Shown in pieces: positions 43,871-50,121 of a DNA stretch of 64,000 bases. Location of the stretch: positions 1 through 64,000 of the forward strand of contig JAKEEM010000033.1 in NCBI GenBank assembly GCA_022616535.1. The letters run 5' to 3'. Positions within the stretch are counted from its first letter, which is position 1; each line of letters starts with the position of its first letter. The notes under the pieces were generated by a model. The model was given only the letters and a program-made list of their open reading frames with translations, had not been told where the DNA came from and made no database searches. Made by a program: the position numbers and the translations under genes. This stretch comes from Chlorobiota bacterium (lineage in GTDB: Bacteria; Bacteroidota; Ignavibacteria; Tepidaquicellales; OLB5).

Positions 43871-44002
43871 TTAAAAGATTAGACTTATGAGGTTCTGAAG
43901 CGTGGATTTAATTGACCAGTAATATTGAACGTTGTAAAACAGTATATACGCGCCTACTAAAACTGCCTGAAACATCGATATTATAAAATTTATTGCTTTC
44001 AT
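43871..44002 (-). CDS. 43-residue membrane peptide, second gene of small operon
   Basis: ATG 44002 to TAA 43871 encodes a 43-residue peptide with a single hydrophobic helix (MKAINFIISMFQAVLVGAYI...) and an amphipathic end (STLQNLISLIF). It starts 23 bases after the stop of the 60-residue gene and is followed 40 bases later by a strong terminator, so the two small genes form an operon. No family is recognised. The operon promoter carries the same three-box operator as the outer-membrane protein gene at 47921. Confidence 0.62.
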   Translation of the reverse strand: MKAINFIISMFQAVLVGAYILFYNVQYYWSIKSTLQNLISLIF

Positions 44003-44025: not shown

Positions 44026-44208
44026 TTAATTATCTTTATTTGACTTGCTTTGATAGTTTCTCTCTACAAATCTTCTGTAAGCATTTTCATCATGTTTTTG
44101 GGTAAATTCACCGTTTCCGAAGAAAATCCAGAAAAATGCAATGTTTTCCATAATAAATTCTTCTCTTGTTTTGACCTTCAATTGTTTTGATTCGTTTAAC
44201 TGTTTCAT
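44026..44208 (-). CDS. 60-residue protein, first gene of small operon
   Basis: ATG 44208 is preceded by AAGGAAGG; the frame is open further upstream, but that extension lies over the promoter. The peptide begins MKQLNESKQLKVKTREEF, has a central hydrophobic patch (NIAFFWIFFGNGEF) and a polar, charged end (YRRFVERNYQSKSNKDN). No signal peptide and no known family are seen. The promoter (44250-44294) faces away from the STAND/BTAD regulator gene and has three phased GTAAG-type boxes, so control by that regulator is inferred. Confidence 0.65.
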   Translation of the reverse strand: MKQLNESKQLKVKTREEFIMENIAFFWIFFGNGEFTQKHDENAYRRFVERNYQSKSNKDN

Positions 44209-44249: not shown

Positions 44250-44294
44250 CAAAAATATTTGCAATGCTTATCAAACTTCTTACAGAAAACTTAC
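44250..44294 (-). promoter_or_regulatory. Promoter with three phased GTAAG boxes (small operon)
   Basis: Reading the reverse strand, GTAAG at 44294-44290, GTAAG at 44283-44279 (11 bases on), ATAAG at 44271-44267 (12 bases on), then nine bases and TATTTTTG at 44257-44250, a -7-type TAnnTTTG element. The ATG follows 41 bases later. The same order and spacings occur at 47837-47881 in front of the outer-membrane protein gene. Direct repeats about one helical turn apart next to the promoter core are how SARP/BTAD regulators bind, and such a regulator gene lies between the two sites. Confidence 0.7.
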
Positions 44295-44450
44295 ATTAAA
44301 AAAGGGGGGTTTTTACTGGTTTTTTGCACTTTTTTGTCCTAATAGAGATATTCAAAATTTTCCGGCATTTTCCATCAGAAAATGGGGCTTTTAATGAATA
44401 GCACTGAATTATTTAAAAATCGGAGTTAAATTGCAGGATAAATTGCTGAA

Positions 44451-47400
44451 TTGTCAGAACCGATAATTAAATCCAGAATTGTACCTAAAAAGCTGTTTGA
44501 GAAAATTGTCTCAAGAAAGCAGCTTTTGAATAAAATTGAGCAAAGCTCTCTCAAAAACGTAATCCTTATAACGGGACCTGCGGGCTACGGCAAAACAACA
44601 CTGGTTCTTGATTACCTGAACAGTAAAGGGACCAATTTTTGCTGGTTATATTCCGGAGCCGATATTGGCAGCCTTTACAGCTTTATTAACTATATGATTC
44701 ATTCACTAAGAAACCTGAATTCGGAATTCGGAGGCAGCACCATTGCTCTTGCAAATTCCTTAAAAGAAGCCCAGACCGGCCCGGCGAATTTGCATGCTGC
44801 GGTGAATTCCTTAATGGGCACTTTTATTAATGAGTTTATGAATTCATTTGGTGATGAAATTTACTTTGTAATAGATGACCTTCATAATTTGTCCCATACC
44901 TCATGGCTCAACCCGGTATTCAATTATATGATTGAAAATTTCCCGCCTAATCTTCACCTGATTATAACAAGCCGCTCTGTTCCGGAATTTAACATTACAA
45001 AGCTTTCTGCAAAAAGAAACATTCTTCACATCGATGCCTCCGAGCTTCACTTTTCTTCCGAAGAAACCGAAAAGCTGCTTAAGGATATTTACTTGCTTCC
45101 GGTTAATTATGATGATGTAAAGCTGCTTGAAGAAAAAGTCGAAGGCTGGGTAACGGGTTTGCATCTGATACTTCAGGCGTACGGAAATGAATTTAAGAAA
45201 ATTGCATCCTCTGATAAGCTGGTCGATGAAAACATTTTCGGTTACTTTGCAGAAGACATTTTTAAGGAGCTGAACGATAATACAAAGAATTTTTTGATGT
45301 TTACGTCATTGCTTGACTGGTTTACTTCCGAGATGTGCAGTGAGATTTTTGGTTTCGCTGATAGCCGTAAAATTCTTGCGGAGCTTAAGACTAAAAATAT
45401 ATTTATTGAATCATCTCAGTTGGGGGAATCTGAATCATACAGCTACCATAACCTTTTCAGACAGTTTCTTCTTAAGAAGCTGAATGAAACCAAAGCACAG
45501 GATGAAATAAAAAAAATTGCGGGTAAAATTTACGCTTATTTCAAAAAAACAGGAGATACTAGCTCTGCGATTGAGTTTGCAATTTTCGGAGGGGAATATG
45601 TACAGGCAGCCGGACTAATTAAAAACTCCTTCGATGAGTTATTCCAGAGCGGAAGCTACGAAATTTTGTGGAAATGGCTCAGCTCAATACCGGATGAATT
45701 TGTCAGGTCAAACCTGAATCTCCTTTTTTTGAGAGGAAAGCTGCTAAAGTTTTACAAAGCTGAATTTACCGAGGCGAAAAAAGTTTTTGACGAAATACGC
45801 AATGATTTGAAAGAAAAAGATGAATTATCCGTCAGAGCAGCTATAGAGATATCGGAAATCCTGGTCCGCACCGGCGAACCCGAAAAAGCTATTGAAATGC
45901 TTGAAGCCCAGCAGGACACTATTAGCTCTGCTGAGTTGAAGGCCAAGAATATAATCTCTCTTGCAAAAGCCTACTACCGGCTCGGCTCCAAGCATTACCA
46001 CAACATTATAAAACTTCTTGACCAGTCAAGCACAATATGCGATGAAAATGACTTTAAAGAGCTTCAGACTGAAATTTATCAGCTATACGGGAAGATTTAC
46101 CATAACCGGGGAGATTTCATTAAATCGCTGCACTATTACGAAAATGTTATTAGGCTTGAACACAATGTTTACAGAAAGTATGAAATTATACTCGATACCG
46201 TTTTATTACTGTCCTGGTCAGGGCAATATCAAAAAGCTAAAGATTATTTAGATACTGCAAATGAAATTTACATAAGCTTCCCTGCAAACGCGTTCAAACG
46301 CGGATTGATGAGAGTTAGGGCCATGCTGAAGTTTGAGGTGGGGGATTATGAGTATTCAATTAAGGGGTTCGAGGAGCTTAACGAACATGATTTGCAGAAT
46401 AAAATAAAGGCATTCGGTATCTGGTATTATCTATTAATATGCGAATCATACATGTTTTTAGATGAATTCGAAAAAGCAAGAGAGTATCTTCAGCTTGCCA
46501 AATCATCGATTGATAAAAATGACGAGTATCAGGTGCTTGAATACGAAATTCATGAGGCGATTTTACTGAAATCGCGAAAAACCGACCCAAAAGTTGAAAA
46601 AGTGCTGAGTGAAGCACATAAGTATTTCGATTCACTTAACCTGATATACAGCAAAACACAGGTTGAATTCCATTTAGCCGATTATTACTATAAAAAGGGG
46701 AGTCCCCAAACTGCTTTAAAATACCTGCTGGACTCGCTTAACACTGCTGGAGAAAAACAATACAGCTCGTTTTTGTCGCAGCATTTTATCCAGTACAGGT
46801 ATTTATTTGATTTTGCCTCTGCCAACAATATACGCAGGGATTTTATCGAAAGTATTCATTCATCTTTAGTTGAAAGAGCCGGTATAGACTGGCTTTCCCC
46901 TAAATGCCTGAAAAGAATAAAACGTGATTCGACTAAGCTCTATGATATATCTCTTTCGACTTTCGGAGGAGCGGAAATATTTGTCCGCGGCAATCTGGTA
47001 ACGGATGATAAATGGATAAGGAAGAAAAGCAAGCTTTTGCTTATATATTTGCTCATAAACCAGAACATTAGGCTCTCTAAAGATAAAGTGCTCGGAATTT
47101 TTTTCGGCGAGCTGACTGCTGAGAGCGCTGAGAATATTTTTCATCAGGCAGTTACGAATATCAGAAATGCCGTAAAGCCCCAGGTATACTCACCCTCAGA
47201 TATTAAGCAGAATGGGAAACAGGCAAAAAAATCAAAAAAAGCATCTGAAGTAAACGCTGCGGTTGAAGTTTCTCCTTCATATATCATTTATGAAGACAAA
47301 ATCCTCAGAATTGCTCAGTCGGGTCATTACAAAATTGATACTATTGAGCTCGGCAGAATTCACGGCTTGATTAAATCGCCTGAAACTGAGGAGCATAATA

Positions 47401-47774
47401 AAGAAAAGCTTGCAATGGAGGCTTTTGAAATCTACAGGGGCGAGTTTTTACCGGGATTTTATGAGCCCTGGGTTGAGGAAACAAGGCTGACACTTGAAAA
47501 TAAATTTATCGATATCTGCGAGCACATTATTCCCTTTTTAATTAAAAACGCCAAATTCGAGGATGCAGTAAAATACTCCGAGAGGCTGATTGAAATCGAT
47601 AACCTCCACGAAGAAGCATATATTAATGCTATTCAGGCATATTCGATGTCAGGGAACCGCAATATGGCAAAGAAAAAGTTCAGCCAGCTGCTTAAAAATT
47701 ACGAGAAGGAGTTCGGCGAAAAACCCTCCGGCGAGGTTTTAAAAAGAGTTCAGGATATTTTAGTTGAAGAATAA
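44451..47774 (+). CDS. STAND ATPase - TPR - winged helix - BTAD transcriptional regulator
   Basis: This 1107-residue protein is built in the MalT/LAL manner but with a SARP-type output. Residues 1-330 are a STAND NTPase: Walker A GPAGYGKTT (42-50), Walker B VIDDLH (about 143) and the sensor LHLIITSRS. Residues about 350-820 are helical TPR-like repeats (GEPEKAIEMLEAQ, YYRLGSKHYHNII). About 830-915 fit an OmpR/SARP winged helix (IRLSKDKVLGIFF, ENIFHQAVTNIRNAV). The last 120 residues are a BTAD domain (YRGEFLPGFYEPWVEETRL). An inducer presumably binds the repeats and ATP drives oligomerisation. The start codon is TTG 44451. Promoters on both sides share an operator-like triple repeat, its likely targets. 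Confidence 0.88.
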   Translation: MSEPIIKSRIVPKKLFEKIVSRKQLLNKIEQSSLKNVILITGPAGYGKTTLVLDYLNSKGTNFCWLYSGADIGSLYSFINYMIHSLRNLNSEFGGSTIALANSLKEAQTGPANLHAAVNSLMGTFINEFMNSFGDEIYFVIDDLHNLSHTSWLNPVFNYMIENFPPNLHLIITSRSVPEFNITKLSAKRNILHIDASELHFSSEETEKLLKDIYLLPVNYDDVKLLEEKVEGWVTGLHLILQAYGNEFKKIASSDKLVDENIFGYFAEDIFKELNDNTKNFLMFTSLLDWFTSEMCSEIFGFADSRKILAELKTKNIFIESSQLGESESYSYHNLFRQFLLKKLNETKAQDEIKKIAGKIYAYFKKTGDTSSAIEFAIFGGEYVQAAGLIKNSFDELFQSGSYEILWKWLSSIPDEFVRSNLNLLFLRGKLLKFYKAEFTEAKKVFDEIRNDLKEKDELSVRAAIEISEILVRTGEPEKAIEMLEAQQDTISSAELKAKNIISLAKAYYRLGSKHYHNIIKLLDQSSTICDENDFKELQTEIYQLYGKIYHNRGDFIKSLHYYENVIRLEHNVYRKYEIILDTVLLLSWSGQYQKAKDYLDTANEIYISFPANAFKRGLMRVRAMLKFEVGDYEYSIKGFEELNEHDLQNKIKAFGIWYYLLICESYMFLDEFEKAREYLQLAKSSIDKNDEYQVLEYEIHEAILLKSRKTDPKVEKVLSEAHKYFDSLNLIYSKTQVEFHLADYYYKKGSPQTALKYLLDSLNTAGEKQYSSFLSQHFIQYRYLFDFASANNIRRDFIESIHSSLVERAGIDWLSPKCLKRIKRDSTKLYDISLSTFGGAEIFVRGNLVTDDKWIRKKSKLLLIYLLINQNIRLSKDKVLGIFFGELTAESAENIFHQAVTNIRNAVKPQVYSPSDIKQNGKQAKKSKKASEVNAAVEVSPSYIIYEDKILRIAQSGHYKIDTIELGRIHGLIKSPETEEHNKEKLAMEAFEIYRGEFLPGFYEPWVEETRLTLENKFIDICEHIIPFLIKNAKFEDAVKYSERLIEIDNLHEEAYINAIQAYSMSGNRNMAKKKFSQLLKNYEKEFGEKPSGEVLKRVQDILVEE

Positions 47775-47836
47775 TCATTTGTCCCCTTTTAATTATTAAA
47801 AATACCTTTTTTTTATTTTTTTTAAGCCTTTCTGCT

Positions 47837-47881
47837 GTAAGAAATGTGTAAGAATTCCCGTAAGTTACGCGGATATTTTTG
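47837..47881 (+). promoter_or_regulatory. Promoter with three phased GTAAG boxes (OMP gene)
   Basis: GTAAG at 47837-47841, 47848-47852 (11 bases on) and 47860-47864 (12 bases on) is followed after nine bases by TATTTTTG (47874-47881). The ATG of the outer-membrane protein lies 39 bases further. A fourth GTAAG (47886-47890) falls near the expected transcript start. The layout is identical to the promoter at 44250-44294 on the other side of the regulator gene. Confidence 0.72.
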
Positions 47882-47920
47882 TAATGTAAGTTAAAAACAC
47901 AAAAAAAAGAAAGGGAAAAA

Positions 47921-48739
47921 ATGAAAAGCTCACAAAACAAATCCGCTTTAGCATACAGAATTTTACTGGCAGTCACGGCTTTAAATCTGCTTTTCTGGTG
48001 GCCGTTTGAGACACTTTCACAAGAAGATAAGAACCTTGAAATCACATTGTATGATTTCGTAGAAGAAAACGGCGAGCAGGTGCTTCAGCCGTATGCCGAT
48101 GCCCTCAGCGGTAGTATGAACTCAGGCCTGTTCCACACTGCTAATGTTAAGAAGGGATTTACGATGTATATCGGCGTAAAAGCTATCGGAACATATATTA
48201 ATGCGGAAAATCAAAAAGTCTTTGATGCTAACAAAACTCTTGATATCGTTCCTCTTGCAGTTCCCCAGCTTCATCTAGGCTCGTTGTTCGGAACAGAAAT
48301 GACTGTCAGGGTACTCCCCCAAATTTCAATCGGCAATTACGGCTCTGTTGGGACGTGGGGAATTGGCATAAGGCATGAATTTACTAGTCATTTCAAAAAA
48401 TCTCCAATTGATGCCGCCGTTCAGCTGTCATTTAACAATTTGACAATTGCAAATTCGAAAGGGAAAGATATGGTCGAAGCCCGCTCTTTTGCCGTCAGTC
48501 TGCAGGTAAGCAAGCGGCTGAGTATGTTTACGTTTTATTCCGGTTTGCAGTATGAAAATACCGAAATTGATGCCGTAATTACAAAAGAAGCCTCTGTCCA
48601 GAAAATGAGCTATGAAAACTGTAACAAAGTAAGAGGCACAATCGGCTTAAATATTAAAATGGGTCCTCTTAACTTAAACTATGATTACAGTGTTGGAAGA
48701 ACGAATTCGATGAGTGCAGGATTTGGCTTTGCTTTTTAA
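47921..48739 (+). CDS. Outer-membrane beta-barrel protein (DUF6588-like)
   Basis: This 272-residue protein has a signal sequence (about 1-34, ending ETLSQE). The mature chain opens with LQPYADALSGSMNSGLFHTA, continues as alternating strands (FTMYIGVKAIGTY, LGSLFGTEMTVRVLPQISIG) and ends SAGFGFAF with the terminal Phe of outer-membrane barrels. The N-terminal phrase is like the DUF6588 family from Bacteroidota/Chlorobiota, of unknown function. The RBS AAAGGG is good. It lies 146 bases after the STAND/BTAD regulator, has its own operator-bearing promoter and ends at a strong terminator, so it is a single-gene transcript and a probable regulator target. Confidence 0.75.
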   Translation: MKSSQNKSALAYRILLAVTALNLLFWWPFETLSQEDKNLEITLYDFVEENGEQVLQPYADALSGSMNSGLFHTANVKKGFTMYIGVKAIGTYINAENQKVFDANKTLDIVPLAVPQLHLGSLFGTEMTVRVLPQISIGNYGSVGTWGIGIRHEFTSHFKKSPIDAAVQLSFNNLTIANSKGKDMVEARSFAVSLQVSKRLSMFTFYSGLQYENTEIDAVITKEASVQKMSYENCNKVRGTIGLNIKMGPLNLNYDYSVGRTNSMSAGFGFAF

Positions 48740-48786: not shown

Positions 48787-48846
48787 AATTGATTTGAAAA
48801 CCAAAATTAATTTAGTTAAAATAAAGGAATTAAATTCCAATTGTTT

Positions 48847-50121
48847 ATGAAAAAGCTGATATCGGTTCTGTTTTTTTTATTTTGCCCGGTTTTGTACAGC
48901 CAGAACTGGGTAAATCATGTTTTGATTCCGCCTCCGCCGCCGTTGTTTTCTGCTCACGCTTATAATACGCAAATTGCATGGTTATCGGGAGCTAACAATA
49001 TTGTTCTTTACACTTCAGACGGGGGTACAAACTGGATTAGGAGAAATGTGCCCGTCGCGACCTCACAAATTTACGGAATTCATTCCATATCACCACAAAC
49101 TGCTTTATGCATTGCTAATCCCGGAGGTGGAATAGTTTTCAGAACTTCAAACTCAGGTGCTAATTGGCAGCCGGTATTAACCCGAATAAACGGCACACTA
49201 AACGATTTAGAATTTATTAATGCACTAACGGGTTACGTTTACGGCAACCCGGGCGGCTCAATGTGGTTTTTTGCCAGAACAACAAACGGCGGAATTTCGT
49301 TCGATACGACTGTCCCGCGTCCTAGTGCTCCGGCGAATATTTTAGGTTTTCCCAATGCAATGTATGCGCTTTTATCCGCCACTCCAAGGATTTGGTTCGG
49401 GACTAACCAGGGAATCGTCGTCTATTCAACAAACGGAGGGACAAGCTGGACTGCTTCAAATACTCCAGGCAACCAGCTGGTTCACACAGTTTTCTTTTTG
49501 GATGCACTGACAGGCTTTTGTGCGGGCAACCAGGCATTTAAAAGCACAGACGGGGGACGGACGTGGGGCATTCAGGGTTACCCGGGAACAGGAAATTTTT
49601 ATTCCGTCTCAGGCATTGCAGGGTATTTGTGGTATGCAAGAGGGAACCAAATTTATTATTCTATCAATCAGGGTTTGAGCTTTGTTTTACAGCATACTTC
49701 ACCATTAAGCGGCAGCTACAGACAGCTGAGCTTTTCCTACCAGGCAAACGATAACAGCTTATCCACCATCACCGGCTGGGGTGTTACCGAAGACGGTGTG
49801 GTTTCGGGTTACAATGATAATTCAATAGGCATTGAACCTATAAGCAGTGAAATCCCTCAAAGTTATAATTTATTGCAGAATTACCCCAATCCTTTTAATC
49901 CTTCAACCAAGATTAGATTTGATATTCCGCAAAATACTTTTGCAGAGCTGAGTGTATTCGATTTACGCGGTGTTCTTGTTGAAGAAATATTTTCTGGCTT
50001 GCTAAACGCGGGAAGCTACTCAGCTCGGTTTGACGGCTCACATTTATCAAGCGGCGTTTACTTTTATAAGCTCAAGGCAGGAGATTTCACAAGTACTATG
50101 AAGATGATTCTGATTAAATAA
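48847..50121 (+). CDS. BNR/YCF48-like propeller protein with T9SS sorting domain
   Basis: This protein has 424 residues from ATG 48847 (a TTG two codons upstream also fits). The signal peptide ends near LYSQ. The body (about 25-325) is a propeller with Asp-box/YCF48-like turns: YTSDGGTNWIRR, RTSNSGANWQP, YSTNGGTSWTA and KSTDGGRTWG. From about residue 345 it has a T9SS domain with LQNYPNPFNPSTKIRF and a closing MKMILIK. Such proteins are secreted or surface-bound; ligand unknown. The next gene starts three bases after the stop. Confidence 0.87.
   Translation: MKKLISVLFFLFCPVLYSQNWVNHVLIPPPPPLFSAHAYNTQIAWLSGANNIVLYTSDGGTNWIRRNVPVATSQIYGIHSISPQTALCIANPGGGIVFRTSNSGANWQPVLTRINGTLNDLEFINALTGYVYGNPGGSMWFFARTTNGGISFDTTVPRPSAPANILGFPNAMYALLSATPRIWFGTNQGIVVYSTNGGTSWTASNTPGNQLVHTVFFLDALTGFCAGNQAFKSTDGGRTWGIQGYPGTGNFYSVSGIAGYLWYARGNQIYYSINQGLSFVLQHTSPLSGSYRQLSFSYQANDNSLSTITGWGVTEDGVVSGYNDNSIGIEPISSEIPQSYNLLQNYPNPFNPSTKIRFDIPQNTFAELSVFDLRGVLVEEIFSGLLNAGSYSARFDGSHLSSGVYFYKLKAGDFTSTMKMILIK

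Follow-up and report, generated by a model that had tools for sequence, protein, structure and literature searches.

The 64,000-nucleotide stretch of contig JAKEEM010000033.1 from a Chlorobiota bacterium that was analyzed here (the window) very probably encodes a STAND-type SARP activator that binds DNA in the fashion of AfsR and controls a local regulon of two promoters, as one member of a wider family of paralogues. This reading is based on the paired and conserved operator sites, on the fact that regulator, sites, and targets occur together, on class-specific box words that match both the regulator phylogeny and the recognition helix, and on the domains of the protein; from these we infer binding, activation, control by ATP or a ligand, and the signal. 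An earlier note, made from the letters of the window, had proposed a local regulon of a STAND-type SARP outside Actinobacteria with two peptides and an outer-membrane protein (OMP) as its output. That first reading turned out to be essentially right, and the system is wider: most paralogues have operators of their own, and some targets are unlinked.

Matched promoters on both sides of the regulator gene

The triple-box operator/promoter of a peptide operon lies at positions 44250 to 44294 on the reverse strand (GTAAGTTTTCTGTAAGAAGTTTGATAAGCATTGCAAATATTTTTG), with boxes GTAAG (44294-44290), GTAAG (44283-44279), and ATAAG (44271-44267) and the -7 element TATTTTTG (44257-44250). Its counterpart before an outer-membrane-type gene occupies positions 47837 to 47881 of the forward strand (GTAAGAAATGTGTAAGAATTCCCGTAAGTTACGCGGATATTTTTG), with GTAAG at 47837-47841, 47848-47852, and 47860-47864 and TATTTTTG at 47874-47881. 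Both were recognized by sequence match and are conserved at orthologous loci. The common design described in the earlier note, i.e., box starts at steps of 11 and 12 bases followed by nine bases and TATTTTTGTA, is present at both sites, and the distance from the first T of the -7 element to the ATG is 49 nt for the peptide operon and 47 nt for the outer-membrane-type gene. The box unit was drawn too short: GTAAG is there, but the most constant unit of the orthologous sites is (C)TGTAAG in boxes 1 and 2 and NTAAG in box 3.

A search with the pattern GTAAG-N6-GTAAG-N7-RTAAG-N9-TAnnTTTG, allowing up to 3 mismatches, returned precisely these two sites from the window and nothing from 100 dinucleotide shuffles. 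Within the source genome (2.89 Mb, 77 contigs), there were two matches with at most 2 mismatches, both beside the STAND-SARP gene; at up to 3 mismatches a single poor match was added to the two window sites, and the backwards pattern gave none. About 1e-5 exact matches would be expected per genome from base composition. The two-site match is confirmed as real and far beyond chance. The additional 3-mismatch match (C6:35784) was judged to be due to chance, with its poor boxes and a contig on which no regulator gene was found. TAnnTTTG is known as the -7 element in promoters of Bacteroidota. Upstream of 40 long open reading frames of the window (120 bases each), it occurred 13 times in sense and 4 times in antisense orientation, compared with 22 occurrences in 51.9 kb inside open reading frames, which makes it a plausible promoter element here.

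Domain architecture of the regulator

The gene between the sites (44451 to 47774, forward strand) encodes a protein of 1,107 aa, for which Pfam, profile search, AlphaFold model, and Foldseek comparison agree with the claimed winged-helix plus BTAD protein of STAND type. A MalT-like NTPase (residues ~1-425) is followed by a TPR superhelix (~340-830), a winged helix (~832-962), and the BTAD region (963-1105). The Pfam scan found NTPase, TPRs, and BTAD (1.6e-14), but neither a C-terminal LuxR/GerE helix-turn-helix, in whose place the winged helix-turn-helix (wHTH) and BTAD module stands, nor an N-terminal receiver domain of OmpR/PhoB type. A profile of 27 family members matched MalT (8bob) at 3.7e-61 across residues 10 to 425, and the NCBIfam MalT model (PRK04841) matched at 6.5e-68, although its 229.6 bits are far under the 537-bit cutoff. 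The P-loop residues G45, G47, and K48 are invariant and, together with the TPR superhelix, mark a STAND NTPase; the MalT-type NTPase and TPR region correspond to the N-terminal part of MalT/LAL proteins, and the OmpR-type winged helix followed by BTAD corresponds to SARPs. SARP operators have repeats ~11 or 22 bp apart, with the 3' repeat ~8 bp from the -10 element, and the sites of the window agree approximately, one step being 12.

With the AlphaFold model (predicted local distance difference test score [pLDDT], 85.6), Foldseek retrieved MalT (1e-15), the STAND protein 6MFV, EmbR, and the SARP domain of AfsR on promoter DNA (8HVR; target template modeling score, 0.74). When only the C-terminal part was searched by sequence against the PDB, nothing but TPR proteins was found, so its likeness to AfsR depends on fold comparison. 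In contrast to the N-terminal SARP module of AfsR-type large SARPs, the module is located here at residues 832 to 1105, behind the NTPase. From the Pfam, MalT profile, and AlphaFold/Foldseek matches, the architecture is therefore that of a MalT-type sensor joined to a SARP effector, in the domain order opposite to AfsR. The predicted recognition helix, a helix in the AlphaFold model, comprises residues 890 to 907 (ENIFHQAVTNIR..; 47118 to 47171, forward strand), and its residues vary with the operator class.

Conservation of sites, regulator, and output genes

The comparison covered 58 related genomes, 15 genomes of the same family (f1), and a class-wide scan of 391 genomes; the named relatives are all metagenome assembled, the genomes are mostly drafts, and all genome counts are raw, i.e., uncorrected for shared ancestry. 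Sites with 0 or 1 mismatch were detected among the 58 relatives in G004, G006, G008, and G013 (other genus, same family), and one was found in G028 (other family). The records are named Ignavibacteria bacterium (e.g., JAIOIK010000112.1, JAUQWQ010000065.1, JAUQWT010000098.1, and JACSRQ010000239.1). In G004, G008, and G013, an outward-facing pair of sites ~3.6 kb apart encloses an orthologue with 47 to 51% identity to the window regulator; one site is visible in G006, where the other flank is beyond the contig end. The spacing of 11/12/9 is identical to that of the window throughout these orthologous sites. When the OMP and peptide promoters were compared within each genome, boxes and -7 element were 94% identical and the remainder was 42% identical, in agreement with the original observation that the two promoters are otherwise unlike. 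Two 2-mismatch matches (G003:C5 and G006:C80) were judged to be due to chance, since their boxes are poor and they are not on contigs of regulator genes.

The class-wide matches were concentrated in family f1, where the backwards control gave 0, and the remaining class was at background level. The earlier note had asked whether the pattern is confined to regulator loci and whether orthologous loci keep boxes and spacing. Both hold: the family sites with 0 or 1 mismatch flank orthologues of the regulator, and the orthologous loci retain boxes and spacing together with all three output genes. The proposed local regulon outside Actinobacteria is supported by predicted sites that, within the family, occur only at the loci of this regulator, and as judged from sequence it looks local. 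Its suggested outputs also persist, as both peptides and the DUF6588 protein described below are conserved alongside regulator and sites. The OMP orthologue is present in 5 of the 15 family genomes, exactly those with the regulator.

Peptide 1 (60 aa; 44026 to 44208, reverse strand) has a C-terminal block, YRRFVERNYQSKSN, and is kept at all 4 readable loci. Significant matches were limited to 5 of 59 genomes; it is present in four of the five regulator-bearing family genomes (the locus of G006 is cut), with a weak match in G009. Peptide 2 (43 aa; 43871 to 44002, reverse strand; MKAINFIISMFQ..YILFYNVQYYWS) is hydrophobic, probably a membrane peptide, and 77 to 81% identical at orthologous loci, and most family genomes have a paralogue at another place. 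This second copy (43 to 44 aa; L159 at G000:C9:42923-43048, and L160 to L174) occurs in nearly all family genomes and usually adjoins a divergent gene of 756 to 770 aa. The boxes were sought at this second locus, and a strongly conserved promoter of another type was found instead (GGTATTGAGA..AACTAACG..ACCCTAATTTTG).

The gene on the other side (47921 to 48739, forward strand) encodes a 272-aa protein with the Pfam domain DUF6588 (6.6e-44), whose orthologues at the other loci are 51 to 55% identical. Its model (pLDDT, 55) has an N-terminal hydrophobic helix and then ~12 beta strands ending in Phe; this low-confidence barrel-like model and the DUF6588 match suggest, with low confidence, a protein of outer-membrane barrel type. 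A protein of the type IX secretion system (T9SS) type, secreted, is encoded next to it in the window (48841 to 50121), and similar-looking genes are in this place in L047, L048, and L049. It is possibly part of one functional unit with the OMP gene.

Paralogous regulators and unlinked targets

The source genome encodes three such regulators above the BTAD cutoff, and the relatives have several each. Operators near these paralogues were sought as any triple repeat before TAnnTTTG, with the word not fixed to GTAAG. Most paralogues have a triple-repeat operator of their own, at the same distance from TAnnTTTG but with other words; it precedes a neighboring gene for a secreted or surface protein. 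Class B operators (GGTATR/GGTAAG/GGTAAG at 12/12) precede a leaderless protein of ~109 aa, class C operators (GATAAGG/GATAAGG/GTATGC at 12/11) a T9SS-type protein of ~560 aa, and class D operators (GATAAGG/GATAAGG/GTAAG at 12/11) a 172-aa lipoprotein. In class E, CTGTCAG takes the place of box 3 and is preceded at 11 bp by a degenerate CTG box, and the target is a Sec-type peptide of ~61 to 67 aa. The class E word with the -7 element gave 5 matches in 15 genomes, each not more than ~0.8 kb downstream of a class E regulator; those of G006 and G010 had been left out of pattern-making.

Several observations accompany this survey. The class B targets (L050 to L056 and L044) consist of a T9SS type-A-like C-terminal sorting domain, which is odd for a protein without a signal peptide. 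L060 (G004:C160) is a paralogue with a shortened C terminus (~1,010 aa) downstream of a 561-aa T9SS-type protein gene, the promoter of which has GTAAG/GTAAT/ATAAG boxes at 12/12. Sec-type peptides of 57 to 68 aa (L214 to L218; L073, L134, and L135), mostly with a DSTDGNGG- or SDGSGG-like tail, follow class E operators and also TAAG operators in family f2; they are candidates for a role as secreted signals or as surface peptides. The paralogue L057 has two GTAAG copies upstream, which were not counted, being inside the neighboring coding region and at the wrong distance from the -7 element.

A tree calculated from alignment columns 1 to 900, and hence without most of the DNA-binding module, keeps every operator class together as one group. 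Classes C and D are sisters. The end of the recognition helix reads TNIR in class A (word CTGTAAG), SKFR in class B (SRFR in one protein; GGTAAG), SN[IL]R in classes C and D (TGATAAGG), SSIR in the C10 regulator of the source genome (TTGTCAGG), and YNIR, with HS replacing HQ, in class E (CTGTCAG). By sequence comparison, the box word thus appears to change along with recognition-helix residues, a correlation that comprises few independent events.

The 560-aa gene was found in 10 genomes and the 172-aa gene in 9, all with a regulator of the C/D clade, and both are absent from the five family genomes without one. The 560-aa gene is on another contig than the regulator in G004, G011, and G013, and the 172-aa gene in G010, G009, G007, G002, and G014. 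Every listed class C/D target orthologue, linked or unlinked, has recognizable boxes at 12/11 with 0 to 2 mismatches in 15 box positions. Control promoters of unrelated secreted paralogues had 5 to 7 mismatches, the exception being the class F gene of G004:C160, a gene that has a regulator next to it. In the source genome, neither target is linked to the C10 regulator, and the boxes of each are altered to GTCAG, GTCAS, and RTAAG at 11/11. The corresponding pattern GTCAS-N6-GTCAS-N6-RTAAG-N9-TAnnTTTG had 3 matches there, all exact (control, 0), i.e., the two known targets and a new promoter before a secreted protein of ~490 aa; this third match had been left out of pattern-making.

Proposed mechanism and alternatives

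With the -7 element placed at -12 to -5 (PMC9723704), the CTGTAAG-type boxes start at -51, -40, and -28. In AfsR, the repeats start at -40 and -29, sigma region 4 rests atop two protomers rather than in the -35 groove, and ATP lifts the inhibition exerted by the NTPase-TPR part (PMC10936776). PimR binds cooperatively to three CGGCAAG heptamers with 4-nt spacers (PMC5930380). By analogy, a ligand and ATP would probably switch the regulator on, and it would oligomerize on the three head-to-tail boxes from -51 to -22. The bound protein would stand in for the missing -33 contact and recruit RNA polymerase as AfsR does, with activation through boxes 2 and 3 and a third protomer added by box 1. One regulator would in this way drive two outward-facing promoters, those of the two-peptide operon and of the outer-membrane-type DUF6588 gene, while most of its paralogues would recognize their particular box word at exported targets of their own, whether linked or not.

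Some findings weigh against this activator. In family f2, the operator-bearing peptides (G028, G018, and G033) have no clear tie to a regulator: the nearest STAND gene is either 2.4 kb away from the peptide gene or unlinked to it, and a different conserved protein of ~480 aa is encoded next to the peptide. No operator was found beside the paralogues L057 and L045, the latter from the source genome, which have the same fold. AfsR has two boxes at 11 bp, compared with three at 11/12 here. Finally, common descent would let the words of linked operators track the regulator tree even without binding. The unlinked targets are not explained by it, since they are not one linked stretch of DNA, and unlinked targets are also predicted for L045, despite the lack of an adjoining operator. 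With regard to family f2, the ~480-aa proteins are similar to each other (L073, 2374-3819; L134, 3803-5263).

The regulator might bind the boxes but act as a repressor that is released by a ligand, and their overlap with the -33 region fits this idea, as protein bound there could obstruct the polymerase. We consider it improbable: those SARP and MalT proteins whose action is known activate transcription, the positions of boxes 2 and 3 match those of the two repeats of AfsR (PMC10936776), and no further conserved element of the upstream flank would qualify as a -33 box. Slightly less probable still is binding by an ordinary OmpR/PhoB-type response regulator, with the STAND gene as a mere neighbor or another target. 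OmpR-family winged helices do bind similar tandem direct repeats at ~11-bp steps, and that of SARPs is itself of OmpR type (PMC10936776). Nevertheless, the family sites occur only at STAND-SARP loci in five genomes, the OMP orthologue is absent where the STAND-SARP is absent, paralogues have different words at equal geometry that shift with the recognition helix, and the GTCAG sites of the source genome fit the target set of another paralogue. A chance or low-complexity artifact of AT-rich intergenic DNA is practically negligible, in spite of the AT-rich promoter regions with their T runs, given 0 of 100 shuffles, an empty backwards control, and conservation across two genera.

The STAND-SARP activator also figures in a broader, evenly balanced proposal, for which we see an equal chance of being right or wrong: that the paralogous MalT-SARP set of one Ignavibacteria family is a set of insulated switches, each acting on its own exported targets through a class-own triple-box word that is set by two or three recognition-helix positions and can change in concert at unlinked promoters when the helix changes. 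If true, the OmpR-type fold would have a natural code of DNA recognition that is legible from genomes. To our knowledge, nearly everything known of SARP regulators comes from the antibiotic clusters of Streptomyces, and our literature search found no paper on SARP operators from Bacteroidota or Ignavibacteria. In the present system, regulators and operators can both be read from sequence: a family with the domain order reversed, and most of the operators that go with it, among them those of unlinked targets that were first predicted and then found. The matched protein and DNA changes (TNIR, SN[IL]R, SKFR, SSIR, and YNIR pairs) make the specificity of OmpR-type winged helices directly testable. 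Several peptides and surface proteins of uncultured bacteria, conserved but orphan so far, can be assigned a putative control, though not yet a function.

Comparison with known systems

EmbR of Mycobacterium tuberculosis (2FF4) shares the wHTH-BTAD fold but carries an FHA domain and lacks the NTPase and TPR region. MalT of Escherichia coli (8BOB) has a homologous N-terminal NTPase over ~415 residues, a TPR sensor, and a C-terminal DNA-binding module, which is a LuxR/GerE helix-turn-helix, whereas the window regulator ends in wHTH-BTAD. PimR and other SARP-LAL regulators resemble it in the triple-heptamer operator and the nucleotide-binding half of the protein (PMC5930380), and the heptamer CGGCAAG is similar to CTGTAAG (class A) and NGGTAAG (class B); in PimR, however, the SARP is N-terminal, the main operator is clear of the -35 region, and pimM is the sole target. 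The large SARP AfsR of Streptomyces (afsS promoter; 8HVR and 8K60) likewise combines OmpR-type winged helix and BTAD with NTPase and TPR, and its direct repeats are also about one helical turn apart, starting at -40/-29 (here, -40/-28), with the downstream repeat 8 bp from the -10 element (here, nine bases from TAnnTTTG). It differs in its N-terminal SARP module and in acting in an antibiotic cascade, whereas the regulator of the window has a C-terminal module, a Bacteroidota-type -7 element at its promoters, and exported peptides and proteins as targets.

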